Assembly: GCF_039822205.1 (NCBI RefSeq)
Contig: NZ_JBAGBW010000029.1
Location: 1-17,992 of the forward strand
Source of the DNA: Thermodesulfobium sp. 4217-1
GTDB lineage: Bacteria; Thermodesulfobiota; Thermodesulfobiia; Thermodesulfobiales; Thermodesulfobiaceae
Length of the DNA stretch: 17,992 nucleotides
Direction: 5' to 3'
Numbering within the stretch: the stretch's first letter is position 1; every line of letters starts with the position of its first letter. The notes below the pieces were generated by a model that was given only the letters and a program-made list of their open reading frames with translations, was not told where the DNA came from and made no database searches. This document shows positions 1 through 17,851 of this stretch, in pieces. Made by a program: the position numbers and the translations under genes.

Positions 1-1
1 T

Positions 2-3000
2 GTCGCAATCCCTTATTCATCAGGGAATCTTTCCAACCCAACTTGAGGTGAAAACAAAGTTTTTTGGAGTGTTTTTAAAAGAGTCGCAATCCCTTATTCA
101 TCAGGGAATCTTTCCAACCGTTATCAAAAAATTTGAAAAGGAGGTCTAAAAAAAGTCGCAATCCCTTATTCATCAGGGAATCTTTCCAACCAAAAAAAAA
201 AGAGGAGAGTGTGTGAAATGTCAGTCGCAATCCCTTATTCATCAGGGAATCTTTCCAACGATCTCCAAGATTGTTTGGCAAATACGCCACGCGATCGTCG
301 CAATCCCTTATTCATCAGGGAATCTTTCCAACAAGAGGTGCTGTCTTTGCCGTATAGCGGCAAGGAAAGCTCCACGTCGCAATCCCTTATTCATCAGGGA
401 ATCTTTCCAACAAGAACCAAATTCTGTTTACTACAGGCGGCAATGTGCCTGTAGTCGCAATCCCTTATTCATCAGGGAATCTTTCCAACTAGTAAGGGTG
501 GGAGCCAAGTGGGTCACCACTTGGTTTAAAGTCGCAATCCCTTATTCATCAGGGAATCTTTCCAACCGTAGGCGAAGAGGTGGCAGCATTTCAAAGTGGC
601 CCCATAGTCGCAATCCCTTATTCATCAGGGAATCTTTCCAACAGTACCGTGTTGATTTAAATAACGGTCCCACTGATAAGTCGCAATCCCTTATTCATCA
701 GGGAATCTTTCCAACTGATGCTGTATTCAGTCTTTGAGGGAAGGGACGGCCTTATTGTCGCAATCCCTTATTCATCAGGGAATCTTTCCAACCAGCAGTA
801 CAGGAAAAAACTTGATCCTCTTTAGCACAGGGGGTCGCAATCCCTTATTCATCAGGGAATCTTTCCAACCAAAGAAAAAAAGGATGGCCTGGTGTATGTC
901 AGGCCAGTGGTAAGTCGCAATCCCTTATTCATCAGGGAATCTTTCCAACTAGAAGGTAAAAATCTTATTCGTTTTAGAGGGGGGGTGTATAGTCGCAATC
1001 CCTTATTCATCAGGGAATCTTTCCAACCAAAAAAATGGTTGCAGTTTTTGAAGGGAAGGACGGCCTAAGACATAGTCGCAATCCCTTATTCATCAGGGAA
1101 TCTTTCCAACATTAGAGTAGGGGATACGTGGGTGACCACGTGGTTTGTAGAGTCGCAATCCCTTATTCATCAGGGAATCTTTCCAACCCCCCGTGATATT
1201 GATTTGGTTGAGGACTACACCCCCGTATAGTCGCAATCCCTTATTCATCAGGGAATCTTTCCAACTCATGGTGGACGGCCAGAAAATATTGAGCCTGCCA
1301 TTTGATGGGTCGCAATCCCTTATTCATCAGGGAATCTTTCCAACTAAACTTGGAACCAGGTGGATCACTTGGTTCCAGGACCCAGACAGTCGCAATCCCT
1401 TATTCATCAGGGAATCTTTCCAACTTTGTTTTTTGAAATTTAAAAAATTTTTGGGAGGTCTAAAGTCGCAATCCCTTATTCATCAGGGAATCTTTCCAAC
1501 ACTGCAATACAATGTATTGATGAGGTCAACCCTGTCGCAATCCCTTATTCATCAGGGAATCTTTCCAACAAAACAATTTTTGCAGTATTTTTGAAGGACG
1601 GGGAGTTTAGGTCGCAATCCCTTATTCATCAGGGAATCTTTCCAACAATGAGATCGTTAATGAGTTTAGAGGCCCCATCGTGGGCCTGTCGCAATCCCTT
1701 ATTCATCAGGGAATCTTTCCAACGAGTATGATTTCGAATAAGGGTTTAAAGCCCTGCAGCAATGGTCGCAATCCCTTATTCATCAGGGAATCTTTCCAAC
1801 TGGTTCAGTGAGGATAACCTTGCAAGTGTAGTGCCCTTTATGTCGCAATCCCTTATTCATCAGGGAATCTTTCCAACGCTCTACACTGATACTGTTCGCG
1901 TATATTATCCGAACAGATTGTCGCAATCCCTTATTCATCAGGGAATCTTTCCAACCTGGCAGGTTCAAAAATTTGAAAAAAGGGAGGTGCAAAAAGTCGC
2001 AATCCCTTATTCATCAGGGAATCTTTCCAACTTAAAACAAAAAACGGGAGGTTTACGATGAAAGAGTTTAAGTCGCAATCCCTTATTCATCAGGGAATCT
2101 TTCCAACTGCCTGGCAAATACTCCAGGCGTCATCAATTGACGATCTGTCGCAATCCCTTATTCATCAGGGAATCTTTCCAACAGATGTATCACGTTTTCA
2201 AAGTGGCCCCATAAGGGGCCAGTCGCAATCCCTTATTCATCAGGGAATCTTTCCAACAGTAGCAGAAGATGTATCACGTTTTCAAAGTGGCCCCCCCAGT
2301 CGCAATCCCTTATTCATCAGGGAATCTTTCCAACTCGTCAATAGCTTTAGAGGCCCCATCGTGGGCCTGGGTGTCTAGTCGCAATCCCTTATTCATCAGG
2401 GAATCTTTCCAACTATTGCGGGTGGTTGATGAGGATCCAGGTCTAATTAAGCTAGTCGCAATCCCTTATTCATCAGGGAATCTTTCCAACATTCACTATT
2501 CTTGTGTCAGAAGGGAGATGATGATGAGTTAAGTGTCGCAATCCCTTATTCATCAGGGAATCTTTCCAACTATATGCGCCCCGTAGTCAGAGTAGGAACA
2601 AAGGTTGTAATAAGTCGCAATCCCTTATTCATCAGGGAATCTTTCCAACCGTACTATAAAACTCATAGGGCTATTGGGAGAAGAAACAATGTCGCAATCC
2701 CTTATTCATCAGGGAATCTTTCCAACCGTTAAAGATGAAAAATTTTAAAAAGCTTACTGTTAATATTGTCGCAATCCCTTATTCATCAGGGAATCTTTCC
2801 AACATAGTACACCCCAGGTAGAGGGGGTTGGGGTATACGAAGTATTGTCGCAATCCCTTATTCATCAGGGAATCTTTCCAACCCCTTATAGAGTTACAAT
2901 AGAGTTACAGGCCCTGCAGTAAGTCGCAATCCCTTATTCATCAGGGAATCTTTCCAACTACCAGGATCAAATATTGAAGGTAGGGTTGAACGTTTATACT

Positions 3001-6000
3001 GTCGCAATCCCTTATTCATCAGGGAATCTTTCCAACATATACTTCCCCCAGTTCTGGAAAGACTACATCAAAAAGTCGCAATCCCTTATTCATCAGGGAA
3101 TCTTTCCAACAGAAATGAAGGCCTGAAGATGTATGGGAGGCGTAGTCCAGTCGCAATCCCTTATTCATCAGGGAATCTTTCCAACGGTTCATGGACAAGG
3201 ATCCGATGCAATATGATGTGTTGCTGAGTCGCAATCCCTTATTCATCAGGGAATCTTTCCAACAAGATGTTGTATGCAGTTTTTACAAGCAACAAGGGCC
3301 TGATACAGTCGCAATCCCTTATTCATCAGGGAATCTTTCCAACAGGGATATACCTAAGGATAAGTAAAAGGCATTGCACTTATTGTCGCAATCCCTTATT
3401 CATCAGGGAATCTTTCCAACATTCAAAGAATTAACCGTCCTTTTGGACGGCCAAAAAGTATTATGTCGCAATCCCTTATTCATCAGGGAATCTTTCCAAC
3501 AGGGAATGTCCCTGTTGTTGTAAACAATGAGATCGTCGCAATCCCTTATTCATCAGGGAATCTTTCCAACGTTGAAAGGTATGAAATGTTTTGCTGTGTA
3601 TCAAGTTGCAAGGTCGCAATCCCTTATTCATCAGGGAATCTTTCCAACATGAGCAACAGGTGTTTAAGGCTGCTAAACTTGAAATCCTGTCGCAATCCCT
3701 TATTCATCAGGGAATCTTTCCAACGGATCTGCTCCCTGATTGGAACCAGCCTGATTGGCTGAATGAAAGGTCGCAATCCCTTATTCATCAGGGAATCTTT
3801 CCAACAGGGAGGTAATAAAATGCTGTATGGAGTTTTTCAAGAAGGCAGGTCGCAATCCCTTATTCATCAGGGAATCTTTCCAACAGGGCCGTTTTAAAAA
3901 AAAAAATTTTAATCGGAGGCCTAAAATGAGTCGCAATCCCTTATTCATCAGGGAATCTTTCCAACTCTAATGGCAGGGCTTTTTGTTTTAAGTTAAAAAA
4001 AGTCGCAATCCCTTATTCATCAGGGAATCTTTCCAACTTGGTTGCTCATTGATGGTAGAAGAAGCAGCATATAAAGGTCGCAATCCCTTATTCATCAGGG
4101 AATCTTTCCAACATGCAGTTAAGTCTGAAAATGGAGAGTCTGCACATGCTGGTCGCAATCCCTTATTCATCAGGGAATCTTTCCAACGAAACAGGTGAGC
4201 CCTTAATAAAAGCTGAAGGGAGAATAGTCGCAATCCCTTATTCATCAGGGAATCTTTCCAACTTGAGGGAGGTTAAACATGAGCAAGTTTTTCGGAGTAT
4301 TTGTCGCAATCCCTTATTCATCAGGGAATCTTTCCAACACCACCTGGTTTATGGACCATAACCCCTTAGAGTATATGGTCGCAATCCCTTATTCATCAGG
4401 GAATCTTTCCAACTAGGGTGGTGGATGAAGGTTTAGCTCTGATAAGACTGTCGCAATCCCTTATTCATCAGGGAATCTTTCCAACGTCTCTGTCATGTGT
4501 TGACAAAGACAGTAGTAGTGGTAAAGTCGCAATCCCTTATTCATCAGGGAATCTTTCCAACACGATGAAGTTATCCTGGCAGATCTAGATTGTTATATAG
4601 TCGCAATCCCTTATTCATCAGGGAATCTTTCCAACGGCAGCTAACAGTCTTAATTGATGGTCAAAAAATCTTGTCGCAATCCCTTATTCATCAGGGAATC
4701 TTTCCAACACAAGTAGAGCAGCTTTTAGCAATCTTTTAAAGATCTGTCGCAATCCCTTATTCATCAGGGAATCTTTCCAACAAGGATGTGTGTGATCAGG
4801 AAGTTTTCAAGGCTTTAAAAAAGTCGCAATCCCTTATTCATCAGGGAATCTTTCCAACATAGACGGCCAAGAGGTTCTATCTCTACCGTTCATCGGTAGG
4901 TCGCAATCCCTTATTCATCAGGGAATCTTTCCAACATGGCGCCCCCAGGTTTATCATAGTAAAGAAAACAGAAAAGTCGCAATCCCTTATTCATCAGGGA
5001 ATCTTTCCAACTGGCAGATACCCTGCTAGGGTTTTGCAAGAAGAATAATTTGTCGCAATCCCTTATTCATCAGGGAATCTTTCCAACTATACCTTCCATG
5101 CATCAAGTGTTAATGATCTGAATCAGATGTCGCAATCCCTTATTCATCAGGGAATCTTTCCAACTAAGAATTGGTAAAGATATGTATTTAAAAGTGAGTA
5201 ATAAGTCGCAATCCCTTATTCATCAGGGAATCTTTCCAACCCACGTGGGTTACCACGTGGTTCATGGAAGATGCACCTGAAATGTCGCAATCCCTTATTC
5301 ATCAGGGAATCTTTCCAACTGCAATGAAAAAGTTAGTTGTAACAATAGATGGCCAGTCGCAATCCCTTATTCATCAGGGAATCTTTCCAACTGGTGGAAG
5401 GCCTGGGTGTATATGAGTTACTCAATAGTCGCAATCCCTTATTCATCAGGGAATCTTTCCAACCCTGGACAGTCTAGTCCAGGACTACCGTACGCCCCAG
5501 GTAAGTCGCAATCCCTTATTCATCAGGGAATCTTTCCAACATCGATGCCAGGTGGGTTACCATCTGGTTCGATGAGCAAAAGTCGCAATCCCTTATTCAT
5601 CAGGGAATCTTTCCAACCAGATATAGTTATATTTGTGTACAGAAACAATTATGTCGCAATCCCTTATTCATCAGGGAATCTTTCCAACGGGTTGAACGTT
5701 TACACTTCTAAGAAGTAACGTTCAATCACTAGTCGCAATCCCTTATTCATCAGGGAATCTTTCCAACCACGTGGGTTACCACGTGGTTTAAGGATGAAGA
5801 TCCAGTAAGTCGCAATCCCTTATTCATCAGGGAATCTTTCCAACAGTTAAAAATTGTTTTAGATGGCACTGAAATTTTAAGCCTGTCGCAATCCCTTATT
5901 CATCAGGGAATCTTTCCAACGTGAAGTACTGTGATGTGTGGGGCTATGCCCCATACGTCAAGTCGCAATCCCTTATTCATCAGGGAATCTTTCCAACTAG

Positions 6001-6987
6001 ATTTTATGGACTTGGTCCCCGTATAGGGGGCCAGGTCAAGTCGCAATCCCTTATTCATCAGGGAATCTTTCCAACTTGATTGAAGGAGTTGGGAGTAATG
6101 ATGTATGCAATTTTTGTCGCAATCCCTTATTCATCAGGGAATCTTTCCAACTTTGCACTGGTCCTGGTCTATGGGGGGCCACAAGCCCCCATGAGTCGCA
6201 ATCCCTTATTCATCAGGGAATCTTTCCAACTTACAAAAATGAAAGAGTTCAAAAAGCTATCAATCAGTATGTCGCAATCCCTTATTCATCAGGGAATCTT
6301 TCCAACTTTATGGGGGGCCACAAGCCCCCCGAACCATAGATTTGATGGTCGCAATCCCTTATTCATCAGGGAATCTTTCCAACTAACTGACTTCCCTGTG
6401 CTACTATCTCTGCCATCAGTCGCAATCCCTTATTCATCAGGGAATCTTTCCAACAACAAGTTCTTAATTTTGCCAACTTAGTTGCAAAGCTTGAAGTCGC
6501 AATCCCTTATTCATCAGGGAATCTTTCCAACAAAAACTGGTCTGATGCATTTAAGACCAGTTATCAAAATGTCGCAATCCCTTATTCATCAGGGAATCTT
6601 TCCAACACACCCATGGTACAGGGCCTAGGGGTGTATGAAGTAGTGTCGCAATCCCTTATTCATCAGGGAATCTTTCCAACTGCTCCTAAATGCTCTAAAA
6701 TTGAACGCAGTGAAAAAAAAAGTCGCAATCCCTTATTCATCAGGGAATCTTTCCAACTTTATCCCATACGATAAAGACTTTGTAGAAAGAATGGGAAAAG
6801 TCGCAATCCCTTATTCATCAGGGAATCTTTCCAACTATAGATTTGCTTGATTATGACTTTGAGTAAAGTTAGTCGCAATCCCTTATTCATCAGGGAATCT
6901 TTCCAACAGGCTTTAAAAATTGAAATCCTTGATAGTTTAGTCAAGGATTTCGTCGCAATCCCTTATTCATCAGGGAATCTTTCCAAC
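2..6987 (-). CRISPR. CRISPR array, 92 repeats of 36 bp and 91 complete spacers
   Basis: The 36-bp unit on the plus strand starts GTCGCAATCCCT and ends ATCTTTCCAAC. I located 92 copies by eye; all look identical. Starts run 2, 83, 155, 224, 297 ... 6722, 6800, 6872, 6952. Spacers are 33-47 bp, mostly 39-43. Position 1 is the end of another spacer, so the array continues beyond the left edge. Transcription is assigned to the minus strand because a strong promoter abuts the right end and because the transcribed repeat then ends in ATTGCGAC, resembling the ATTGAAA(C/G)-type 8-nt 5' handle of many type I and III crRNAs. In that orientation the repeat holds a 5-bp stem, TCCCT/AGGGA, around an 8-nt loop. 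There are no cas genes in the window, so the subtype is not fixed by context. Neither visible end shows repeat decay, suggesting an active or recently active array. The spacers are highly redundant; see findings. Confidence 0.99.
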
Positions 6988-7818
6988 TGTACCCATTATA
7001 AACCTTGATTTATCAATAGTCAAATAGATAAGATCCTCGGAAGGGGTGGGTATGATTTTCTATCATAATTCTAAGCAGTGCCCAATCCCAATTTTCGGCT
7101 ATATTAAGCTAAAAAATTTTCCTCGGATGAAAACGAATTTAAGCCATTTTTTGGACTTCGTTGGGATACCAGTATACAGTTGAAAAAATAACTTTATTTG
7201 ATTGTCAAAGAACAAAAATTTATTCATATGATTACTCAAACTTCCAAATTATATCATATATTTTTGTTAACTGACGAAAATTTTATCCCTTAAGAAAATT
7301 TTAATTTTGCCACCAAATTAAAGAATTCTTTAGGAATTGGGTGGATAAGAGAACATAAGCTGGATATAGCTAAAAAATTATCAAGCGCCTTTGCATAAAT
7401 TGCAGATTAGATTAACAATTCATTAACAGATGTCAGATATATTTATCATTTAAGAATTTTAATCAGCTAATAAATTTTGCCAGGCTATATGTAGAGGCAA
7501 TATATTTAATTCTTAAAAGTACGATAAAATTTCTTATTCATATATTGAACAAATGTCCAAATAAGTTTAAAATTGAGTGTAAAAAGCTTAGAGGGGAATC
7601 CTAAAATCGATACAAAGTTAAATTTTGCTATAAATGAATTTGATCGAAGGTTATTCGCCAGCCTTAGAGCTTTAGAAAAAGGTCTAAAATTTTACTTGCT
7701 ATTTGACAATATCATGCGATTGGTGAATTTGGAAATTGGCGCTCTATATTAAATTCATATTTCTATACTTTCTGGTCAGCCTTCAATCTTTCTTGAAATT
7801 TGAAAGAGAGCTTTAAAT
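6988..7818. other. AT-rich non-coding region: CRISPR leader and divergent operon upstream region
   Basis: These 831 bp hold no convincing gene. The left part is the array leader with the promoter described separately. A short inverted repeat, TATGAT (7051-7056) and ATCATA (7062-7067) with a 5-nt loop, lies about 65-80 bp from the first repeat and could be a leader anchor site for adaptation, but it is weak evidence. The string GCTAAAAAATT occurs near 7109 and 7368, probably chance in AT-rich DNA. The right part should carry the promoter for the helicase operon. A TTGACA at 7703-7708 has no good -10 box at 16-18 bp, so I do not call that promoter. The start codon at 7819 is preceded by AAAGAGAG at 7803-7810, a plausible ribosome-binding site. 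Confidence 0.7.
6995..7023 (-). promoter_or_regulatory. Array promoter in the CRISPR leader
   Basis: Read on the minus strand, TTGACT (7023 to 7018) is followed by exactly 17 bp and then TATAAT (7000 to 6995). Seven bases, GGGTACA, then separate the -10 box from the first repeat at 6987, so the predicted transcription start lies at or just before the repeat edge. This near-consensus sigma-70-type promoter fixes the array direction as right to left and marks the right end as the leader-proximal, spacer-acquiring end. It is inferred from sequence only. Confidence 0.8.
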
Positions 7819-10800
7819 ATGGAACTTATCGATAATGTAAATAGTCTTTTGGGCGACGATCTAAAATCTACTATAAATGCTAATTCAAAATTAAAAATTG
7901 CAGCCTCTTGTTTTTCTATGTATGCCTATGAAACGTTAAAAAGAGAGCTATCAAGGATAGATTCGCTTGAATTTATCTTTACCTCACCCTCTTTTGTCCC
8001 GTTGGATATGCTTGATAACACGAAAAAGCAGCACAGGGAATTTTTTATATCGAAAACTGAGAGAGAGAAAAGTTTTTATGGCAGCGAATTTGAGATTCAG
8101 CTAAAGAATAAGCTTACCCAAAGGGCTATTGCAAAAGAGTGTGCTGAATGGATTAAGAAAAAGGCTAAGTTCAGGTCCAATATTACAAATGCCCCAATGC
8201 AGCAGTTTATCTGTGTTTCACAGGCTGAGAAAAGTTATATTTACAGTCCTATTCAGGGATTTACAGCAGTAGATCTGGGCTATCAAAAGGGGAATGCTAT
8301 CTCAAATTTTGTAAACAAGTTTAATGAAATTCCTATGACTCAGACTTATCTAAATCTTTTCGATCAACTTTGGGCCGATAATGAGAAGCTAAAGGATGTT
8401 ACGGATATCTTGATCAATCACATTTCTACCGTCTATAAAGAGAACCCACCAGAATTGATCTATTTTTTGATGATATACAATATATTTAACGAATTTTTGG
8501 AAGACATAAACGACGACGTCCTGCCAAATGACAGGACTGGATTTAAAGATACTGTTGTCTGGAACAAGCTATACAACTTCCAAAAAGATGCAGCATCAGG
8601 AATTATAAACAAGCTTGAGACTTTCAATGGCTGCATTTTAGCAGATAGCGTAGGTCTGGGTAAAACCTTTACTGCGCTCGCAGTTGTAAAATACTATGAG
8701 CTTAGAAATAAATCTGTTTTGGTTCTGTGTCCAAAAAAACTTGCAGATTACTGGCTGAATTTCAATAAAAACCTTAAAACAAATACCTTTGTAAAGGATA
8801 GGTTTAACTACGACGTCCTAAATCATACTGATTTGCTTAGGAAAATGGGATATTCTTACGGCATCCCATTGGATAGGGTAAATTGGGGAAATTATGACTT
8901 GCTTGTGATTGATGAGTCTCACAATTTTAGAAATAATATCGCCTTCAAAGATAGAGAGACGCGATATCAAAGGCTGATGAACGAGGTTATCAGATCAGGC
9001 GTGAAGACAAAGGTTCTTATGCTCACTGCTACTCCTGTGAACAATAGATTTAACGATCTAAAAAATCAATTAGCCTTTGCCTATGAGGGTAACCCCGATG
9101 TTCTTGCCAGCAAGCTAAACGTTTCAAAAAATATTGAAGAGATATTTAGAAGGGCACAGGTAGCTTTTAACGCATGGTCAAAACTGCCTTCTGAAAAGAG
9201 AACGCCAGAGGCTATATTAAATTCTCTTGACTTTGACTTTTTCGAGCTTTTGGATAGCGTTACTATAGCGAGATCAAGAAAGCATATCCAAACTTTCTAT
9301 GATACGGCCGATATCGGTCAATTTCCTCAAAGAAACAAACCTATATCATACCGTTCGAAGCTTACCGATATGCCAAATATTCCAGGCTTTAACGATATTT
9401 ATAAGGAGCTATCATTGTTGAAAATGGCTATATACGCCCCAATCGGGTATATTTTGCCAAGTAGGATTGGAAAATATGAAGAGTTATACGATACAGAAGT
9501 TCACGGCGGCAAAAGTAAATTTCGCCAGGTAGACAGGGAACGTAGCCTCCAGGCTCTAATGACCATCAATCTTCTAAAAAGATTGGAGAGCTCTGTTTCT
9601 TCATTTAGACTATCCCTTGAAAGGCTAAAGGATAGTATCTCTGTGGCAGTGGGCAAAATAGATGACTTTTATCAAGGGAAAACTGCTACTTTTATAGAGC
9701 CAAATCTTGTAGACGAAGATGCCTTGGATGATGAAGATATTGAAAATATAGATAACTTTTTTGCCAGCAAAAGTATCCAGATAAGCCTAAAGGATATGGA
9801 TACAAAGTCTTTTATATACGACCTAAAATCAGATTTGGCGATTATTGAAAATCTTTTAGGCTATATGAATAAAATTACACCCCAGCACGACTACAAGCTG
9901 CAGCATCTGAAGAGTCTGCTTACAACTAAAATTCAAAATCCTATAAACGAAGGCAACAGAAAAGTGCTAATCTTTACCGCTTTTGCAGATACCGCGAAAT
10001 ATCTGTATGAAAATATATCTAAGGACTTTCTTCGAAAATTCAATATTCATTCAGGACTCATCACTGGTTCAGATACCCCACGATCGACTCTGGGCAAGGG
10101 GTATGACTTTCAATCCCTTCTTACTCTCTTTTCTCCCATCTCAAAAGAAAAGTCAGTAGTTATTCCAGAGGAAACAAGAGAAATAGACTTTATAATCGCC
10201 ACAGATTGCGTTAGCGAGGGCCAAAACCTTCAAGATTGCGACTATGTGATAAATTATGATATCCATTGGAATCCCGTTATCATCATCCAAAGATTTGGCA
10301 GAATTGACAGGATAGGCTCAAAAAATAAAGTTATTCAGATGATCAACTACTGGCCTGATATCTCGCTTGATGAGTATATCAATCTAAAAGAGAGAGTAGA
10401 AAATAGAATGATAATCGCAGATGTGTCTGCGACAGGCGATGACAACGTCCTAAGCGCCAAGGCAAACGACATTTCATTTAGAAAAGAGCAGCTAAAGAAA
10501 CTTCAGGAAGAGGTCATCGACTTAGAGGACATAAAAACAGGTGTAAATATTACAGATTTGGGTTTGAATGACTTTCGAATGGACCTGATAAACTACCTGA
10601 AAACTCACAAAGATTTAGAAAAACTTCCAAATGGACTTCATAGCGTAGTTTCATCTGATATCACGAAAAATCTGCCTCCTGGAGTAATATTTGTCTTGCG
10701 CAACAAAAATCATAGCATCAACACAAATCAACAAAATAGGCTTCACCCATACTATCTGATCTACATCTCAAAAAATGGAGAAATTGTAGTAAACCATACT

Positions 10801-11088
10801 GAACCAAAGAAAATTTTGGATATTACAAGAAGCCTATGTAAAGGTAAGGGTGAGCCCATAGAAAAAGTATATACGACTTTTAACAATGCCACAAGAGACG
10901 GCAAAGATATGAATACATATTCCAAACTTTTGGAAAGGGCTATATCGTCTATAGTAGAAGTTCAGGAGGAAAAGGATATAGATTCTCTTTTTAGCGGTGG
11001 TGGTACGACCTCTCTGGCAAATAAGATAAGGGGTTTGGATGATTTTGAGCTCATTAATTTCATAGTCGTTCAGGAAGAAGACCGATGA
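7819..11088 (+). CDS. SNF2-family helicase with degenerate PLD-like N-terminus, first gene of extended type III R-M operon
   Basis: This 1089-residue protein is a superfamily 2 ATPase of the SNF2/Rad54 type. Visible motifs are YNFQKDA (about 252-258), Walker A ADSVGLGKT (275-283), the Walker B/DEXH box VIDESH with D365-H368, motif III MLTATP (401-406), then a long insertion with an acidic stretch (about 632-650). The second lobe has VLIFTAF (from about 716), TDCVSEGQNL (795-804) and motif VI QRFGRIDRIG (824-833). The first 165 residues, with the pattern KIAASCFSMYAYETL then a hydrophobic strand, resemble a phospholipase D-like fold, but I see no HxK(x)4D motif, so that domain is probably not catalytic. 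The start is supported by AAAGAGAG eight bases upstream. The stop overlaps the next gene by ATGA, implying translational coupling. Likely role: DNA translocase or remodeller working with the Mod/Res pair downstream. The helicase assignment is firm; the role in defence is inferred from context. Confidence 0.92.
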   Translation: MELIDNVNSLLGDDLKSTINANSKLKIAASCFSMYAYETLKRELSRIDSLEFIFTSPSFVPLDMLDNTKKQHREFFISKTEREKSFYGSEFEIQLKNKLTQRAIAKECAEWIKKKAKFRSNITNAPMQQFICVSQAEKSYIYSPIQGFTAVDLGYQKGNAISNFVNKFNEIPMTQTYLNLFDQLWADNEKLKDVTDILINHISTVYKENPPELIYFLMIYNIFNEFLEDINDDVLPNDRTGFKDTVVWNKLYNFQKDAASGIINKLETFNGCILADSVGLGKTFTALAVVKYYELRNKSVLVLCPKKLADYWLNFNKNLKTNTFVKDRFNYDVLNHTDLLRKMGYSYGIPLDRVNWGNYDLLVIDESHNFRNNIAFKDRETRYQRLMNEVIRSGVKTKVLMLTATPVNNRFNDLKNQLAFAYEGNPDVLASKLNVSKNIEEIFRRAQVAFNAWSKLPSEKRTPEAILNSLDFDFFELLDSVTIARSRKHIQTFYDTADIGQFPQRNKPISYRSKLTDMPNIPGFNDIYKELSLLKMAIYAPIGYILPSRIGKYEELYDTEVHGGKSKFRQVDRERSLQALMTINLLKRLESSVSSFRLSLERLKDSISVAVGKIDDFYQGKTATFIEPNLVDEDALDDEDIENIDNFFASKSIQISLKDMDTKSFIYDLKSDLAIIENLLGYMNKITPQHDYKLQHLKSLLTTKIQNPINEGNRKVLIFTAFADTAKYLYENISKDFLRKFNIHSGLITGSDTPRSTLGKGYDFQSLLTLFSPISKEKSVVIPEETREIDFIIATDCVSEGQNLQDCDYVINYDIHWNPVIIIQRFGRIDRIGSKNKVIQMINYWPDISLDEYINLKERVENRMIIADVSATGDDNVLSAKANDISFRKEQLKKLQEEVIDLEDIKTGVNITDLGLNDFRMDLINYLKTHKDLEKLPNGLHSVVSSDITKNLPPGVIFVLRNKNHSINTNQQNRLHPYYLIYISKNGEIVVNHTEPKKILDITRSLCKGKGEPIEKVYTTFNNATRDGKDMNTYSKLLERAISSIVEVQEEKDIDSLFSGGGTTSLANKIRGLDDFELINFIVVQEEDR

Positions 11089-11753
11089 ACGGATATTTTT
11101 CTTATCCTGCCTATACATACAAGGGGAAAAACATACCAAAAACAAAATTTTATGAAAATGCCAAAATAGACAATCGTTTGAAAGAGAAGTTTGTAAAAGA
11201 AATTGACAAAATTATATGGCAGCACAACCTCTCAAAGGATACTGTCAATGTAGATAGCGCTCAAGAAGTCACAGAGATTCAGATTTTCGATATTCACTTA
11301 AAGGGAGAAAATATTAGCCAGGACGTGTTAATGGCTATTGATAAGGCTATAGCCTATCCTGTAATTTTTCAGATTGTAAAGGGAAGCAAGATGAAAATCA
11401 AAGCTGCCTACAAAAAGCTCAGCAAGAATATCAGCCAAAAATCCCTTTCATCGCAATATCTGGAAACCGATTGGTTCGACATTAGCCTGGAAAGAAAGCC
11501 TCTTCCTGTGAGCCTTAGCCTCTCAAAGCTATATGAGGCAATCCTGGATGATCTAATGTCTATTCAGCTAAATATACCTGATAACCTCAATGTGGAAGAA
11601 AAACTTGATGAATATTCCAAAGTAGTAGGCCTAAAGAGAAAATATGATGAGCTAAGGTTAAAAAGAGATAGAGAAAAGCAATTTAACAAGAGAGTAGAGC
11701 TAAATTATAAATTGAAAAAATTATATTCACAGATAGAGGGAAGGATAAAATGA
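11085..11753 (+). CDS. DUF4391-like protein between the helicase and Mod
   Basis: This 222-residue protein is recognised by overall pattern as DUF4391. It has IPKTKFY near residues 17-23, a helix ending in KIIWQHNL (about 42-49), an acidic strand VTEIQIFDIHL (about 62-72), a later PVIFQI strand followed by a helix, and WFDISL near the middle. The last 45 residues are highly charged and look like a coiled coil (EKLDEYSKVV through LNYKLKKLY). No enzymatic motif is visible. Start and stop both sit in ATGA overlaps with its neighbours, so it is co-translated with the helicase and the methyltransferase. From memory, proteins of this family occur next to SNF2 helicases and type III-like Mod/Res genes; a structural or adaptor role in that complex is a guess. 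I cannot confirm the family without a profile search. Confidence 0.75.
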   Translation: MNGYFSYPAYTYKGKNIPKTKFYENAKIDNRLKEKFVKEIDKIIWQHNLSKDTVNVDSAQEVTEIQIFDIHLKGENISQDVLMAIDKAIAYPVIFQIVKGSKMKIKAAYKKLSKNISQKSLSSQYLETDWFDISLERKPLPVSLSLSKLYEAILDDLMSIQLNIPDNLNVEEKLDEYSKVVGLKRKYDELRLKRDREKQFNKRVELNYKLKKLYSQIEGRIK

Positions 11754-13699
11754 TAGAAAAACTTGATATGAGGACGCCTGATTTTAGTGACAAGAATATT
11801 GAACTTATTTCAAGGCTATTTCCAAATTGTATAACTGAGCAAAGAGATGAAAAGGGGACGCCAAGAAAGGCTATTGACTTTGACCTTCTCAGGCAAGAGC
11901 TTTCAAAGGATATAGTAGAGGGCACCAAGGAGAGATACCGCCTGGAGTGGCCTGGCAAAAAAGAAGCCCTCCTTTTGGCAAACACCCCAATAAATAAAAC
12001 GCTAAGGCCTATAAAAGATGACAGCGTAAATTTTGATACCACGCAAAATCTTTATATAGAAGGGGACAATTTGGATGCGCTAAAGCTCCTTCAAGAGAGC
12101 TACCTGAACAAGGTAAAGATGATCTATATCGACCCTCCCTATAACACTGGAAAAGATTTTGTATACAAAGATAACTTTACGATCGACAAGGAAGAAGAGC
12201 TAAAAAGCAGCGGACAAATGGATGAATATGGCAACAGGCTTATAAAAAATGTGGAGTCAAACGGCAGATATCATAGCGACTGGCTATCTATGATGTACCC
12301 AAGGCTAAAACTTGCAAGGAATCTTCTAAGAGATGACGGAGTGATATTTATCTCAATAGATGACCATGAAGTGCACAATCTAAGAAAGATTTGTGATGAG
12401 ATTTTTGGAGAGAGGAATTTTGTTTGTGAGTTTGTGTGGGCAGGAAAAAGTGGATCAGAAGACGATAGCCATATTAGAAATAACAAAGAATATATACTAT
12501 GTTTTGCTAAACGAGTTAATCAATTTGAAGTTGGATATGACTTGAAAAAAGAAGAAAAATTTAACTTATTTGATTCTAAAAAAAACGATTTCTACAAGCG
12601 ACAATTATTAAGAAAATGGGGGGATAATAGTAAAAAAGAAGATAGACCAAATCTACATTATGCAATTCAAGATGATGATGGAAAAATTTTTTTTCCAAAG
12701 TTGCCCAATGGTGAAGATGGCTGTTGGAGATGGTCTAAAGAAACGATGCAGTTGGCTATTAAAGAAAGTAGAATTGAATTTGCATTTAATAGTAAAGGTA
12801 TCAAAGAAGCCTACGAAAAAATTTATCAATCAGAAGAAAGAAATAATAACAAAAAATTTCAAAGTTTACTATATGAATTAGGCAGTAGCGCTGAAGGAAC
12901 AAAAGAAGCTAAAAATTTATTTAATGATAATAAAATATTTTCAAACCCTAAACCAACTAAGTTATTAAAAAGATTATGTAAAATTGCAGGTTTAAATTCA
13001 TCAGATATCATCCTCGATTTTTTCAGTGGTTCAGCAACAACTGCTCATGCAGTTATGCAAATAAACTCTGAAGATGGCGGCAATCGTAAGTTTATTATGG
13101 TGCAGATTCCTGAACCGACTGATGAAGACAGTGAGGCATATAAGGCAGGATACAAAAATATATATGAAATTGGCAAGGAAAGGATCAGAAGGGCAGGGGC
13201 TAAGATAATTGAAAATATAGCCCAGGAGTCCTCCAAAAAAAACGATCTTTTTAATGAAACCAAGACTGCGCCATCGCTTGACATTGGGTTTAGAGTCCTA
13301 AGAGTGGATAGCTCAAATATGAAAGACGTATACTATTCCCCTGATGAGACAAAAAAGGAAGATATGCTTAGCTTCGTTAGCGACATAAAAGACGACAGAA
13401 CCGATCTGGACTTGATATATCAGGTGATGCTTGATAGTGGAGTGGAATTAGCCCTTTCTATTGAAGAAAGATATATTTTAGATAAGTTGGTTTATTTCGT
13501 GGGCGAAAATATCCTTGCAGCATGCTTCGCGACTGATCTGAACAAAGAATTCTTCATTGAATTTGCAAAACAATCTAAAGATAACGACTTGCTAAAGGTT
13601 GTATTTAGAGATAGCAGCTTCGATAGCGATGATACAAGAATCAATGTAGAACAGATCTTTAGACAGTATTCTCCAAGCACTCAGATAAGGGTTATCTAA
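11750..13699 (+). CDS. mod: Type III restriction-modification DNA adenine methyltransferase (Mod)
   Basis: This 649-residue protein should transfer a methyl group from S-adenosylmethionine to N6 of adenine and give the system its sequence specificity. The order of motifs is that of the beta class: motif IV IDPPYNTG (D128-P-P-Y131) comes first and the AdoMet-binding motif DFFSGSATTAHA (from D423) comes last, with the target-recognition region between. The N-terminal segment YIEGDNLDALKLLQE just before DPPY is typical of Mod. Length matches known type III Mod subunits (about 600-680). GGGAAGG upstream supports the start, which overlaps the DUF4391 stop. The central part, about 12480-13020 (residues 244-424), has roughly 27% GC by hand count against about 40% on either side, suggesting a swapped recognition domain. 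The stop overlaps the Res start (TAATG), as usual for co-expressed Mod and Res. Confidence 0.95.
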   Translation: MIEKLDMRTPDFSDKNIELISRLFPNCITEQRDEKGTPRKAIDFDLLRQELSKDIVEGTKERYRLEWPGKKEALLLANTPINKTLRPIKDDSVNFDTTQNLYIEGDNLDALKLLQESYLNKVKMIYIDPPYNTGKDFVYKDNFTIDKEEELKSSGQMDEYGNRLIKNVESNGRYHSDWLSMMYPRLKLARNLLRDDGVIFISIDDHEVHNLRKICDEIFGERNFVCEFVWAGKSGSEDDSHIRNNKEYILCFAKRVNQFEVGYDLKKEEKFNLFDSKKNDFYKRQLLRKWGDNSKKEDRPNLHYAIQDDDGKIFFPKLPNGEDGCWRWSKETMQLAIKESRIEFAFNSKGIKEAYEKIYQSEERNNNKKFQSLLYELGSSAEGTKEAKNLFNDNKIFSNPKPTKLLKRLCKIAGLNSSDIILDFFSGSATTAHAVMQINSEDGGNRKFIMVQIPEPTDEDSEAYKAGYKNIYEIGKERIRRAGAKIIENIAQESSKKNDLFNETKTAPSLDIGFRVLRVDSSNMKDVYYSPDETKKEDMLSFVSDIKDDRTDLDLIYQVMLDSGVELALSIEERYILDKLVYFVGENILAACFATDLNKEFFIEFAKQSKDNDLLKVVFRDSSFDSDDTRINVEQIFRQYSPSTQIRVI

Positions 13700-16600
13700 T
13701 GAGAGCCCAAATGAACTTTAGGTTTAAAAAGCAAGCATACCAGCTTGATGCAGTAAAATCAGTTGTAGATTGTTTTAAAGGTCAAAGTAAAATTGAAGGC
13801 ATAAGATATAGAATTGATCCAGGCAAAGAAAGGGCTCAATTTATTCCAAATCTTGAAGAAGAGTTTTTGCCAGGGTTCAAGAATAGCGAATTTACTATCT
13901 CAAAAGATACAATACTTGAAAGTATTCAAAGAGTCCAAAGAGAGAGAAACCTCCCTGTGAGCGATGCGCTGAAGAAAAATATTGTCTGCGATGTGAACCT
14001 TGACGTTGAGATGGAGACGGGAACTGGCAAGACCTATGTATATACCAGAACCTGCTTTGAGCTAAACAAAGAATATGGATGGAACAAATTTATCATCGTA
14101 GTGCCCAGCATTGCTATTCGTGAGGGAGTATATCAGTCAATAGAGCTTACGCGTGAGCATTTCTTAGAAGAATTTGGCAAGCAGGCGAAAGCTTTTATTT
14201 ACAACTCCAAAGAACTTCACAATATAGAGAGCTTTTCCAGCGATGCAGGTATCAATATAATGATCATCAATGTGCAGGCATTTAACGCAACAGGAGCTGA
14301 CAACAGAAGAATCTATGACGAGCTTGATGAGTTTTCTTCCAGAAGGCCAATTGACGTAATAAAGGCAAATAGACCTATACTTATCATAGATGAACCCCAA
14401 AAGATTGAAGGAAATGATAAAAAAGAGAGTAAGAGTTTTATAAGCCTGAAGGAATTTAATCCGCTATTTATCCTTAGATATTCAGCTACTCTTAGAAGAG
14501 TATATAATAAGGTATACAGATTGGACGCGCTGGATGCCTACAACCAAAAACTTGTAAAAAAGATTAGTGTAAAGGGCATCTCTGTAAAAGGGCTGTCGGG
14601 AACGAATGCATATCTTTATCTCCAGAACATTGAGATTAGCTCCACAAAGCCACCTGTAGCCAAGCTGGAAATTGAGATAAAGAAGCAGGGCTCTATCAAG
14701 AGAGACCTCAGAATTCTTGAGGTCGGCGATGACCTATTTATAAAGTCAAATGAACTTGAAGAGTATAGAGGCTATGTGGTAAGCGAAATTGACGCATACA
14801 AGAACAAGATATTTTTTAAAAATGGATTAGAGCTAAGCGTAGGAGATGTGGTGGGGGATATTAGCGAGGATACAGTTAGGAGGATTCAGATAAGGGAGAC
14901 CATCAAGGCTCATCTGGAAAGGGAGAAGGGGCTTTTTAATAAGGGCATAAAGGTACTTAGTTTATTTTTTATTGATGAAGTTGCAAAATATCGAGTATAC
15001 AACGACGAAAATGAAAAAAACGGCGAATATGCCAAAATATTTGAAGAAGAATATGACTCAGCGGTAAAGGACTTGGGGCTAATATTTGACAAGGGTTATG
15101 AAGAATATCTAAATGCTATAAAGCCTTATGAGACCCATAATGGATATTTTGCACGGGATAAAAAGGGCAATCTTACAGACCCAAAGATTAAATTAAGAGG
15201 CGAGGATGCTGGCGAGGCTGATGACGTAGATGCGTATGATTTGATATTGAAGGACAAGAAAAGGCTTCTCTCATTCGAAGAAAAGACGCGTTTTATATTC
15301 TCTCATTCAGCTCTCAGGGAGGGCTGGGACAACCCAAATGTGTTTGTAATCTGTGCGCTCAGGCACAGCGAAAATACTATTTCCAGACGACAAGAAGTGG
15401 GTCGTGGAATGAGAATATGTGTAAATAAATATGGCGAAAGACTTGACGACCCGATCAGTGTTCACGATATCAATGTGCTAACCGTGGTGGCAAATGAAAG
15501 CTACAAAGATTTTGTAAGCTCATTACAAAAAGAGATTAGTGAGACATTGAGCGAGAGGCCCAGGGTGGCCAGTGCTGAATACTTTAGTGGCAAAATCATT
15601 CATTCTGAAGGCGAAAAAATAAAAGTTTCCAAAGAAATGGCTGATAAGCTTGAATACTATCTCATTCGAAACGGTTATGTCGATGAAAATAAAAATATTA
15701 GTGAAAAATATCACGAGGATAAAAAATCAAATACCTTAGCTCCTCTTCCTGAGAGCTTAAAAGAGTATGGGGGAGAGGTATTTAAACTTGTCGACAGCGT
15801 GTTCAGCGAAAGCGCTCTCAAGGATATTGTAGAGGATAGCTCAAGGCTAAAGCCAAATCCTATAAACGATGCAAATTTTGGAAAAAAACAGTTTCAGGAA
15901 TTGTGGCAAAGCATAAACAAAAAAGCTATTTATACGGTTAACTTTGACAGCAGAGAGCTAATCGATAACGCAAAAAATGCTATTGAAAGAGAGCTTCTGG
16001 TAAGCAGTCTGGAATACACCGTTGTCAGCGGGACGCTTGAAGCAATGGATGCTGAGATGCTAAAAGCTAAGCAAAACTTTGAGATAACAGAGACCGAAAA
16101 TATAAAAGAAAAAAACTCTGTAAATTCAGGTGTAAAATACGATTTGGTAGGCAAGATCGCCTCAAATACCAATCTGACAAGAAAGACAGTTGGACAGATT
16201 TTAGCTAAGCTCTCTGATGAGAAGTTCAGTTATTTCCAGAAGAATCCAGAAGAGTTTATCTCAGAAGTATCAAGAATTATCAGCGATCAGAAGGCTTCTA
16301 TGGTCATTCAGAAACTGGTCTATACTCCAATAGAAGATAGATTTGATACGAATATCTTTACTCTGAATCAGGCTACTTATAACTTTGAAAATGCAAAAGA
16401 GGTCAAAAAGAATATTTACAAATACCTTGTTTCAGAATCAAATGTCGAGAGAGATTTTGCAGATAGTCTTGACGCAAGCAATGAAGTGATAGTCTATGCC
16501 AAGCTTCCAAAAGGCTTCGCCATACCTACGCCTGTGGGAGATTATAACCCTGACTGGGCAATAGTCTTTAAGGATGGTAGAGTTCAATATATATATTTTA

Positions 16601-16773
16601 TCGCTGAGACAAAGGGCAGCATGTCCAGCCTGGAGCTTAGAAAGATTGAAGAGATGAAGATAGAGTGCGCTGAGAGATTTTTTGAAGAGTTAAGCTCAGA
16701 CAATGTGAAATTAAAGTACGGCGAGATTGACAATTTTGAAACTTTGTGGAAGATCGTAGCTGGTAGAGGGTAA
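13699..16773 (+). CDS. res: Type III restriction-modification helicase-endonuclease subunit (Res)
   Basis: This 1024-residue protein is the ATP-dependent translocase and nuclease partner of Mod. The N-terminus has QAYQLDAVKSVV (from about 11), Walker A METGTGKT (105-112), IIVVPSIAIREGV, the Res-typical Walker B variant IIDEPQ (D231-Q234) and motif III YSATLRR (from 261). The second lobe contains HSALREGWDNP (from 536) and motif VI RRQEVGRGMRI (563-573). The C-terminal nuclease of the PD-(D/E)xK type is intact: NPDW with D952, then a beta strand, then ETKG with E970 and K972. All catalytic features I can check are present and the length is normal, so the subunit is probably active. The start at 13699 shares one base with the mod stop. 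A second Met four codons later is possible, but the TAATG junction favours the first. Confidence 0.95.
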   Translation: MRAQMNFRFKKQAYQLDAVKSVVDCFKGQSKIEGIRYRIDPGKERAQFIPNLEEEFLPGFKNSEFTISKDTILESIQRVQRERNLPVSDALKKNIVCDVNLDVEMETGTGKTYVYTRTCFELNKEYGWNKFIIVVPSIAIREGVYQSIELTREHFLEEFGKQAKAFIYNSKELHNIESFSSDAGINIMIINVQAFNATGADNRRIYDELDEFSSRRPIDVIKANRPILIIDEPQKIEGNDKKESKSFISLKEFNPLFILRYSATLRRVYNKVYRLDALDAYNQKLVKKISVKGISVKGLSGTNAYLYLQNIEISSTKPPVAKLEIEIKKQGSIKRDLRILEVGDDLFIKSNELEEYRGYVVSEIDAYKNKIFFKNGLELSVGDVVGDISEDTVRRIQIRETIKAHLEREKGLFNKGIKVLSLFFIDEVAKYRVYNDENEKNGEYAKIFEEEYDSAVKDLGLIFDKGYEEYLNAIKPYETHNGYFARDKKGNLTDPKIKLRGEDAGEADDVDAYDLILKDKKRLLSFEEKTRFIFSHSALREGWDNPNVFVICALRHSENTISRRQEVGRGMRICVNKYGERLDDPISVHDINVLTVVANESYKDFVSSLQKEISETLSERPRVASAEYFSGKIIHSEGEKIKVSKEMADKLEYYLIRNGYVDENKNISEKYHEDKKSNTLAPLPESLKEYGGEVFKLVDSVFSESALKDIVEDSSRLKPNPINDANFGKKQFQELWQSINKKAIYTVNFDSRELIDNAKNAIERELLVSSLEYTVVSGTLEAMDAEMLKAKQNFEITETENIKEKNSVNSGVKYDLVGKIASNTNLTRKTVGQILAKLSDEKFSYFQKNPEEFISEVSRIISDQKASMVIQKLVYTPIEDRFDTNIFTLNQATYNFENAKEVKKNIYKYLVSESNVERDFADSLDASNEVIVYAKLPKGFAIPTPVGDYNPDWAIVFKDGRVQYIYFIAETKGSMSSLELRKIEEMKIECAERFFEELSSDNVKLKYGEIDNFETLWKIVAGRG

Positions 16774-16877: not shown

Positions 16878-17144
16878 ATGGATAACGCTATAGAGCTAAA
16901 AAAAATAAATGTAATAGTGCCTCCCGATAAGGTGGGTGTATCTTATGTATTAGATGTTAATATTGTATCAAATCCTATAACTAAAAACACAATATTATCC
17001 CTTATAGGCGGATTACCGCCATTTCAACAAGAACCAGCGGTACAAGGAGTGGTGCTTGGCAATTACCTTTTTGATATTGAACAACTAAAAAAACTCGCAA
17101 AAGATGTTAATGAAATTTTAGAGAAACTGGAGGATAAAAAATGA
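16878..17144 (+). CDS. Unrecognised 88-aa protein, first gene of a toxin-antitoxin-like unit
   Basis: I do not recognise this protein with confidence. It has an excellent ribosome-binding site (AAGGAG at 16865-16870, 7 bp before ATG) and a strong promoter upstream. The N-terminal half alternates hydrophobic residues as beta strands would (INVIVPP, SYVLDVNIV), the middle is Gly/Pro-rich (IGGLPPFQQEP), a further strand VVLGNYLF follows, and the end is an amphipathic charged helix, IEQLKKLAKDVNEILEKL. Strands followed by a C-terminal helix vaguely recall small DUF3467-type proteins, but this is only a resemblance. No signal peptide or membrane segment is seen. Its stop overlaps the next start in ATGA, so it is co-translated with the HicB-like gene and could be an extra antitoxin or regulator; that is inference. 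Confidence 0.75.
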   Translation: MDNAIELKKINVIVPPDKVGVSYVLDVNIVSNPITKNTILSLIGGLPPFQQEPAVQGVVLGNYLFDIEQLKKLAKDVNEILEKLEDKK

Positions 17145-17569
17145 TATCTGCTTTTTTACCCCCTATAACTGTTAACAATTATAACGTTTATTTACCGATA
17201 AAAGGAAATAATTATTATTGTTCTATAAAAAATATAAGTAACTATAAATATTCAATGCTTGATTTTTCAAACCTAATAATATTTAATAGTCTAAAATCTA
17301 ATGATGAAAACAATAGATTTATAACATTTATAAACCCTTTTATCGTTATATCAAAAGAAGTAGATAATCAAATTATGCTTGAATGGATAGAAGATCAAGA
17401 TCTGTTTGGTATGGGTGAAACATTAGAAGAAGCACAAACTGATTTACTTTATAATATAGAGGGTGTACTCTTAATGAAAAATTTCACAGAAGAAGAGTTA
17501 TCTAAGGATGCAAGAATTTTATTAGAAAAATTATTAGCAAATATAAAAGAAACAAACATTGTTGCATAA
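17141..17569 (+). CDS. HicB-like antitoxin
   Basis: This 142-residue protein carries in its C-terminal half the pattern of the HicB antitoxin fold: a strand IMLEWIEDQ, then LFGMGETLEEAQTDLLYNIEGVL, close to the family's G-x-G-x-T-x-E-E-A-x-x-x-(hydrophobic) signature. The N-terminal 75 residues (LPPITVNNYNVYLPIK and onward) are Asn-, Ile- and Tyr-rich and not typical, so this is a divergent member. No DNA-binding helix-turn-helix is obvious. GGAGG at 17129-17133 precedes the start by seven bases. Directly downstream, 15 bp after the stop, is a HicA-like gene, which supports the pairing; here the antitoxin comes first. The gene is about 20-25% GC, lower than the restriction operon, suggesting a separate origin. 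Confidence 0.7.
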   Translation: MISAFLPPITVNNYNVYLPIKGNNYYCSIKNISNYKYSMLDFSNLIIFNSLKSNDENNRFITFINPFIVISKEVDNQIMLEWIEDQDLFGMGETLEEAQTDLLYNIEGVLLMKNFTEEELSKDARILLEKLLANIKETNIVA

Positions 17570-17584
17570 ATATATTGCATAAAT

Positions 17585-17851
17585 ATGGTAATAAAAACAG
17601 AAAAATTAAAAAAAGCATTACTGGCAAAAGGTTTTTTCTCAAGAGAAGGCGATCATACTTACTTTTATCTAAAACACAACTCTAAGATTTATACCAAAAT
17701 TAGCCACGGGGCCAAAGAATATGGGGATGCACTTTTATCCAAAATAAAAAATCAACTTAAATTCAATAGCTTAGATGAATTAAAATCTTTTTCAGAATGC
17801 ACACTAAAAGAAAAAGATTATATTGAAATTTTAAAAGACAAAGAACTTTAA
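17585..17851 (+). CDS. HicA-like mRNA interferase toxin
   Basis: This 88-residue protein fits the small dsRBD-like HicA fold. It has an N-terminal helix KTEKLKKALLAKGF, then REGDHTYFYL in which His24 sits where HicA toxins have their catalytic histidine (the usual G-[ST]-H), then strands YTKISHG and a helix DALLSKIKNQL. HicA proteins cleave mRNA and are neutralised by HicB, matching the gene immediately upstream. The C-terminal 25 residues (SLDELKSFSECTLKEKDYIEIL) extend beyond the shortest HicA proteins. GAC (Asp) replaces the usual Ser/Thr before the His, so it is a divergent member. There is no strong ribosome-binding site in the 15-bp gap, so translation may depend on the upstream gene. 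Confidence 0.72.
   Translation: MVIKTEKLKKALLAKGFFSREGDHTYFYLKHNSKIYTKISHGAKEYGDALLSKIKNQLKFNSLDELKSFSECTLKEKDYIEILKDKEL

Follow-up and report, generated by a model that had tools for sequence, protein, structure and literature searches.

Spacers of a probable type III-A CRISPR array in Thermodesulfobium sp. 4217-1 repeatedly sample diverged versions of a handful of small genes, always in one coding orientation, and they are rich in hairpins beyond what the encoded amino acids require. We consider it probable that this pattern reflects long-term selection for RNA-targeting III-A spacers directed at those genes of a single phage lineage that are expressed first. The target would then be an early-expressed region of double-stranded DNA, and selection rather than acquisition would make the bias.

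Results

Array, leader and CRISPR-Cas context

The window is the whole stretch of 17,992 nucleotides analysed here, contig C29 of a 2.0-Mb genome assembled in 69 contigs. As the initial annotation had stated, repeats and spacers cover positions 38-6951 with 91 spacers (33-47 nt long), and 92 of 92 repeats are perfect; the left end of the contig cuts into the array, which is incomplete there. The right flank (6988-7160) aligns well with the flanks of two other arrays, a second one in this genome (contig C1) and one in the relative G001, and this three-way conservation marks it as the leader. With the leader at the right, transcription of the window array would run from right to left and, therefore, each crRNA would be the complement of the peptide-coding sequence read on the plus strand, i.e. 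antisense to the coding strand. The features referred to in the text are the following (W, C, N, D and B denote spacers of the window, C1, G001, G002 and type I-B arrays, respectively):

CRISPR array, 2..6987, minus strand: 92 identical 36-nt repeats and 91 spacers; crRNA repeat GTTGGAAAGATTCCCTGATGAATAAGGGATTGCGAC
Leader, 6988..7160, minus strand: conserved in the C1 and G001 arrays (three-way alignment)
Spacer W05, 333..375, plus strand: family A segment EVLSLPYSGKESS with a strong hairpin
Spacer W07, 490..530, plus strand: family B segment VRVGAKWVTTWFK; hairpin CCAAGTGG-GTCA-CCACTTGG
Spacer W10, 716..756, plus strand: family B start MLYSVFEGRDGLI
Spacer W17, 1266..1308, plus strand: family A segment MVDGQKILSLPFD
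Spacer W27, 2032..2071, plus strand: Shine-Dalgarno and family A gene start (GGGAGGTTTACG ATG AAA GAG TTT)
Spacer W33, 2491..2534, plus strand: coding segment KGDDDEL in common with type I-B spacer B36
Spacer W53, 4038..4076, plus strand: 17 nt in common with type I-B spacer B13, opposite strand
Spacer W73, 5541..5581, plus strand: family B variant IDARWVTIWFDEQ; hairpin retained via a G.U pair on the coding strand

Beside the array, the window carries a restriction-modification-like defence locus (7819-16773), an operon with a SNF2-type helicase, a DUF4391 protein, an N6/N4 DNA methylase and a type III Res endonuclease, as well as, at 17141-17851, a small ORF without family assignment followed by what may be a HicA-like toxin, whose Pfam match is weak and does not reach the cut-off.

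The array on contig C1 has 50 repeats and is filled with the same spacer families. Next to it lie csm1-5, cas1 and cas2, together with genes for a Cas4-like protein, a Csx1-like CARF protein and a type A1 CRISPR-associated primase-polymerase (CAPP); Csm1, Csm2, Csm3, Csm4 and Csm5 all match NCBIfam models above cut-off, which makes the system type III-A, and the CAPP gene adjoins cas1 and cas2 (NF040561, 281.9 bits, cut-off 200). The two arrays lie on separate contigs and have near-identical repeats and a conserved leader, and the III-A operon of contig C1 probably serves the window array as well. Two ORFs that by eye resemble istA/istB of IS21 (contig positions 2070-4267) are located directly beside the C1 array, 98 bases from its first repeat. 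Sister arrays occur in the relatives G001 (94 repeats) and G002 (52 repeats), both with homologous family A spacers and a CAPP above cut-off; in the relative G003, a single repeat was found and no CAPP match that reached the cut-off. No reverse transcriptase (RVT_1) match was found in four genomes of the genus. The genome encodes in addition a separate type I-B system with its own array of 37 spacers.

Spacer families encode the same peptides

All spacers were compared in all frames by ungapped BLOSUM62 scoring, with 24 dinucleotide shuffles as the null. Within the window array alone, 46 pairs involving 48 spacers scored at least 30 in the plus-strand frames (shuffle mean, 1.7 pairs and 3.3 spacers), and 31 pairs involving 33 spacers scored at least 35 (0.25 and 0.5 in shuffles). 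After pooling with the C1 array, a same-orientation partner was found for 58 of the 91 window spacers at a score of at least 30 (opposite-orientation background, 15) and 41 belonged to families at a score of at least 35 (background, 3), counts that vary with the threshold and in which single linkage may chain unrelated spacers. The "about 60 of 91" family members claimed in the initial annotation thus hold as a loose count, the safe figure being about 41. The peptide clusters exceed those of shuffled sets, and the statement of the initial annotation that the sampling goes far beyond random acquisition is supported.

Differences between family members were distributed 155/97/385 over first, second and third codon positions, and the codon changes within the window and C1 arrays comprised 253 synonymous and 219 non-synonymous ones. 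Because the differences pile up at third codon positions, the spacers of a family are independent samples of diverged homologues. This supports the earlier proposal that a small gene cluster was sampled independently in many of its relatives; the alternative wording of that proposal, one viral gene family, is too narrow, since at least two small ORF families and some smaller ones are represented. Composites of the two main families, each joined from different variants and not corresponding to one gene, read MKEFKKLTVLIDGQ.ILSLPYSGK.SSTGKN.ILFTTGGNVPVVVN... (A) and MLYAVFEGKDGLIYYIRPVVRVGTKWVTTWFKDEDPVQYDVLL (B). Family members occur along the whole window array, which looks like sustained targeting and not a single burst.

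Strand bias

The family peptides are always read on the plus strand, that is, in one coding orientation relative to the leader, and opposite-orientation spacer pairs stay at about background level. Stretches of at least 14 nt were shared in the same versus the opposite orientation at ratios of 20:1 in the two arrays of this genome, 12:1 in G001 and 2:0 in G002, the two exceptions (W38/C41 and N09/N36) resembling hairpin arms. Shine-Dalgarno plus ATG motifs numbered 15 on the plus strand and 0 on the minus strand of the III-A arrays, and 1 and 1 in the type I-B array. Type I-B spacers also match III-A spacers, opposite strands among them (B13/W53, 17 nt; B07/N56, protein level), which is what DNA targeting should produce. 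They speak for DNA genomes in at least part of the targets, the link to the main families depending on the single protein-level match B07/N56. The initial annotation missed this antisense orientation of the predicted crRNAs, together with the second array and the hairpins described below.

Hairpins in the spacers and in yardstick genomes

About one third of the window spacers contain a strong inverted repeat versus 6% after shuffling, the corresponding figures being about 26% for the G001 and G002 arrays and 11% for the type I-B array. When synonymous codons were redrawn with the amino acids fixed, 31% of 105 coding spacers (frames hand-assigned from the peptide families) fell at or below the 5% tail. 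Hairpins in the III-A spacers thus exceed what the amino acids require, a finding that is new here. One stem position of the hairpin in the TWVTTW segment is A-U, C-G or G-C among five variant sequences, a covariation score that 17 of 500 shuffles reached and that gives modest support; the LDSLYSES stem is kept between two species via a double change (two sequences only), and on the coding strand G.U-type exceed A.C-type mismatches 12:4 (p=0.038). The hairpins are found at any position within the spacer and are not centred, and several spacers (C01, C43, W57) cut the TWVTTW hairpin. Since their position is arbitrary, the hairpins seem to belong to the target itself, and neither observation supports an acquisition artefact as their origin. 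The 3' end of the plus strand is A/T-rich and G-poor in all III-A arrays (window plus C1, G001, G002), which may reflect prespacer trimming.

The share of 41-mers with a hairpin score of at least 7 or at least 8 was compared with that in host genes and in the genomes of T7, P23-45, phiFa, MS2 and Qbeta. At a score of at least 7 it was 19% in the III-A spacers, 15.5% in the phiFa long terminal repeat (LTR), 10% in the P23-45 early region, 9.5% in MS2 plus Qbeta, and 0-4% in host genes, T7 and most of P23-45 and phiFa; at a score of at least 8 it was 11.3% in the III-A spacers, 9.3% in the phiFa LTR and 1.1% in MS2 plus Qbeta. Hairpin frequency in the III-A spacers was thus indistinguishable from that of the phiFa LTR (p=0.37) and far from that of the rest of phiFa (p=5e-19), of MS2 plus Qbeta (p=0.006 and 6e-6 at the two thresholds), of T7 and of host genes. 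This likeness concerns one phage, P23-45 being a weaker case whose early region is less hairpin-rich than the III-A spacers (p=0.027). The LTR enrichment persists inside coding sequences (14% in the small early genes). In both early regions (phiFa LTR, 1-6638; P23-45, 37200-42110), strong hairpins are about 3-5 times more frequent than elsewhere in the phage genome concerned, coding sequences included.

Searches for the target

No protospacers were found in phages, plasmids, IMG/VR or genomes; blastn of the whole arrays against phages and plasmids returned nothing, and the composite proteins A and B found no target among phages, plasmids and viral contigs. Against genome contigs the composites retrieved a single, weakly related chromosomal ORF from a Latescibacterota MAG, with neighbours that are not phage-like. 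This small ORF (7947-8171) has SSTGKSTILFTTGG in common with protein family A and no Pfam, PHROGs, NCBIfam or PDB match, and the composite peptides, which are very short, hit no convincing family in PHROGs or Pfam, replicase, coat and maturation genes of ssRNA phages included. A DNA-pattern search of viral contigs for the TWVTTW hairpin and the MLYGVF start yielded 13 contigs with the start motif; among the blastn matches listed, other spacers match these only by short weak stretches, with the exception of W43 in one contig, a spacer that contains the search motif itself. Our literature search found no described viruses of the genus Thermodesulfobium.

Discussion

Csm complexes bind complementary transcripts and thereby trigger Cas10 and Csx1/Csm6-type responses, and crRNAs that match the mRNA strand rather than complementing it give no protection. 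A type III-A system acting on viral transcripts, with the array as its immune memory, could generate the observed pattern as follows. The targets of the crRNAs, which would be antisense to them, would be a few small early-type genes within a single diverse lineage of viruses. These are most likely dsDNA phages with many small hairpin-rich genes in the region that is injected first. Cas1-Cas2(-Cas4) and the accessory CAPP would take spacers from viral DNA, and only those binding the mRNA of first-expressed genes would protect, so that the cells carrying them survive. Viral divergence would then force renewed sampling of the same segments over many infections by relatives, until one set of gene segments, in many variants and a single orientation, filled the array. 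In Thermus thermophilus HB27c challenged with phage phiFa, the surviving type III spacers derive from the LTR and target its transcripts, and the same positional and strand bias arose there by selection (PMC7515739). The simplest reading by analogy is that the arrays record the phiFa-LTR equivalent of another phage lineage, first-injected early genes being suggested as the targets by the hairpin likeness to that LTR. Perhaps the shielding of early transcripts from crRNAs or RNases may explain why such genes are rich in hairpins.

The initial annotation had offered three causes for the repeated sampling: primed or locus-biased acquisition, acquisition from abundant transcripts, or selection. 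Selection fits best because of the near-complete strand bias and the Thermus/phiFa precedent, and acquisition from transcripts by reverse transcription loses ground, as no reverse transcriptase was found. A standing array alone is compatible with selection or with acquisition bias, and it is conceivable, if unlikely, that Cas1-Cas2-CAPP prefers one locus, selection being secondary. It would then favour LTRs or free ends of DNA, DNA that is single-stranded or forms hairpins, or DNA under heavy transcription. The association of CAPP with Cas1-Cas2 (PMC8211822) speaks for such a preference, as do the A/T-rich spacer ends (the last plus-strand base is A or T in 110 of the 140 window and C1 spacers) and the somewhat higher frequency of hairpin-bearing spacers in recurrent families. 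However, the hairpins are neither centred nor always left intact, and DNA uptake alone would not give a near-total strand bias, nor did it in Thermus (PMC7515739).

An RNA virus or structured RNA replicon of hot-spring bacteria, copied into spacers by CAPP and not by a reverse transcriptase, was the reading first favoured for the hairpins and was moved down once MS2, Qbeta, phiFa, P23-45 and T7 had been compared; we now hold it to be quite improbable. It would account for the dense hairpins beyond the synonymous-codon null, for some compensatory change and for the excess of G.U-type mismatches on the coding strand, and RNA viruses and Obelisk-like replicons without matching spacers are on record from acidic hot springs (PMC10847044, PMC13096302). 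Nevertheless, the hairpin density fits the dsDNA LTR of phiFa and not MS2 or Qbeta (the III-A spacers do not have a density of this Leviviricetes kind, from which thermophilic RNA viruses could differ), DNA-targeting type I-B spacers match part of these elements as well as a family-B-like segment, the search for a reverse transcriptase found none, and CAPPs prefer DNA templates and use RNA templates poorly (PMC8211822). If true, it would add a second route for RNA-derived CRISPR memory.

That the families arose by spacer duplication and drift inside the array, as 28 nt common to the neighbours W29 and W30 and identical spacers in the G001 and type I-B arrays might suggest, has a negligible probability and was rejected, since the stretches that spacers share begin at different offsets, the 92 repeats do not differ from one another, substitutions favour third codon positions, and a second array and two further species carry the same families; the initial annotation had likewise denied copying within the array, where no two spacers are identical. 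Exact duplicates were seen elsewhere (N16/N18 in the G001 array, B04/B05 and B08/B10 in the type I-B array).

Under selection for targeting early transcripts, the arrays would be the record of one arms race, in which three related host species sampled many diverged versions of a few genes, each time on the mRNA strand. If this reading holds, they provide a natural case of a laboratory result obtained with one phage, and RNA-targeting CRISPR would pay mainly against the first transcripts. They would also point to a trait in common with the phiFa LTR, the packing of early genes with hairpins inside coding sequence, and the family peptide profiles are a ready probe for viruses of Thermodesulfobium.

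Among known systems, Thermus thermophilus HB27c infected by phiFa (PMC7515739) offers the closest parallels: it works without reverse transcriptase, its surviving spacers are antisense to transcripts and concentrate in the early-gene terminal repeat, and this repeat is as hairpin-rich as the spacers described here. It differs in being a laboratory infection with one phage, whereas our arrays are natural, come from three species, sample many diverged homologues and are associated with CAPP. RT-linked type III arrays (PMC5513706) resemble ours in targeting RNA with spacers that have no traceable source, but no RT was found here, and our spacers group into coding families that recur. The CAPP-associated type III systems of PMC8211822 share the type A1 architecture (TPR + AEP) adjoining cas1-cas2 in a III-A locus; that work is biochemical, while the present analysis concerns spacer content.
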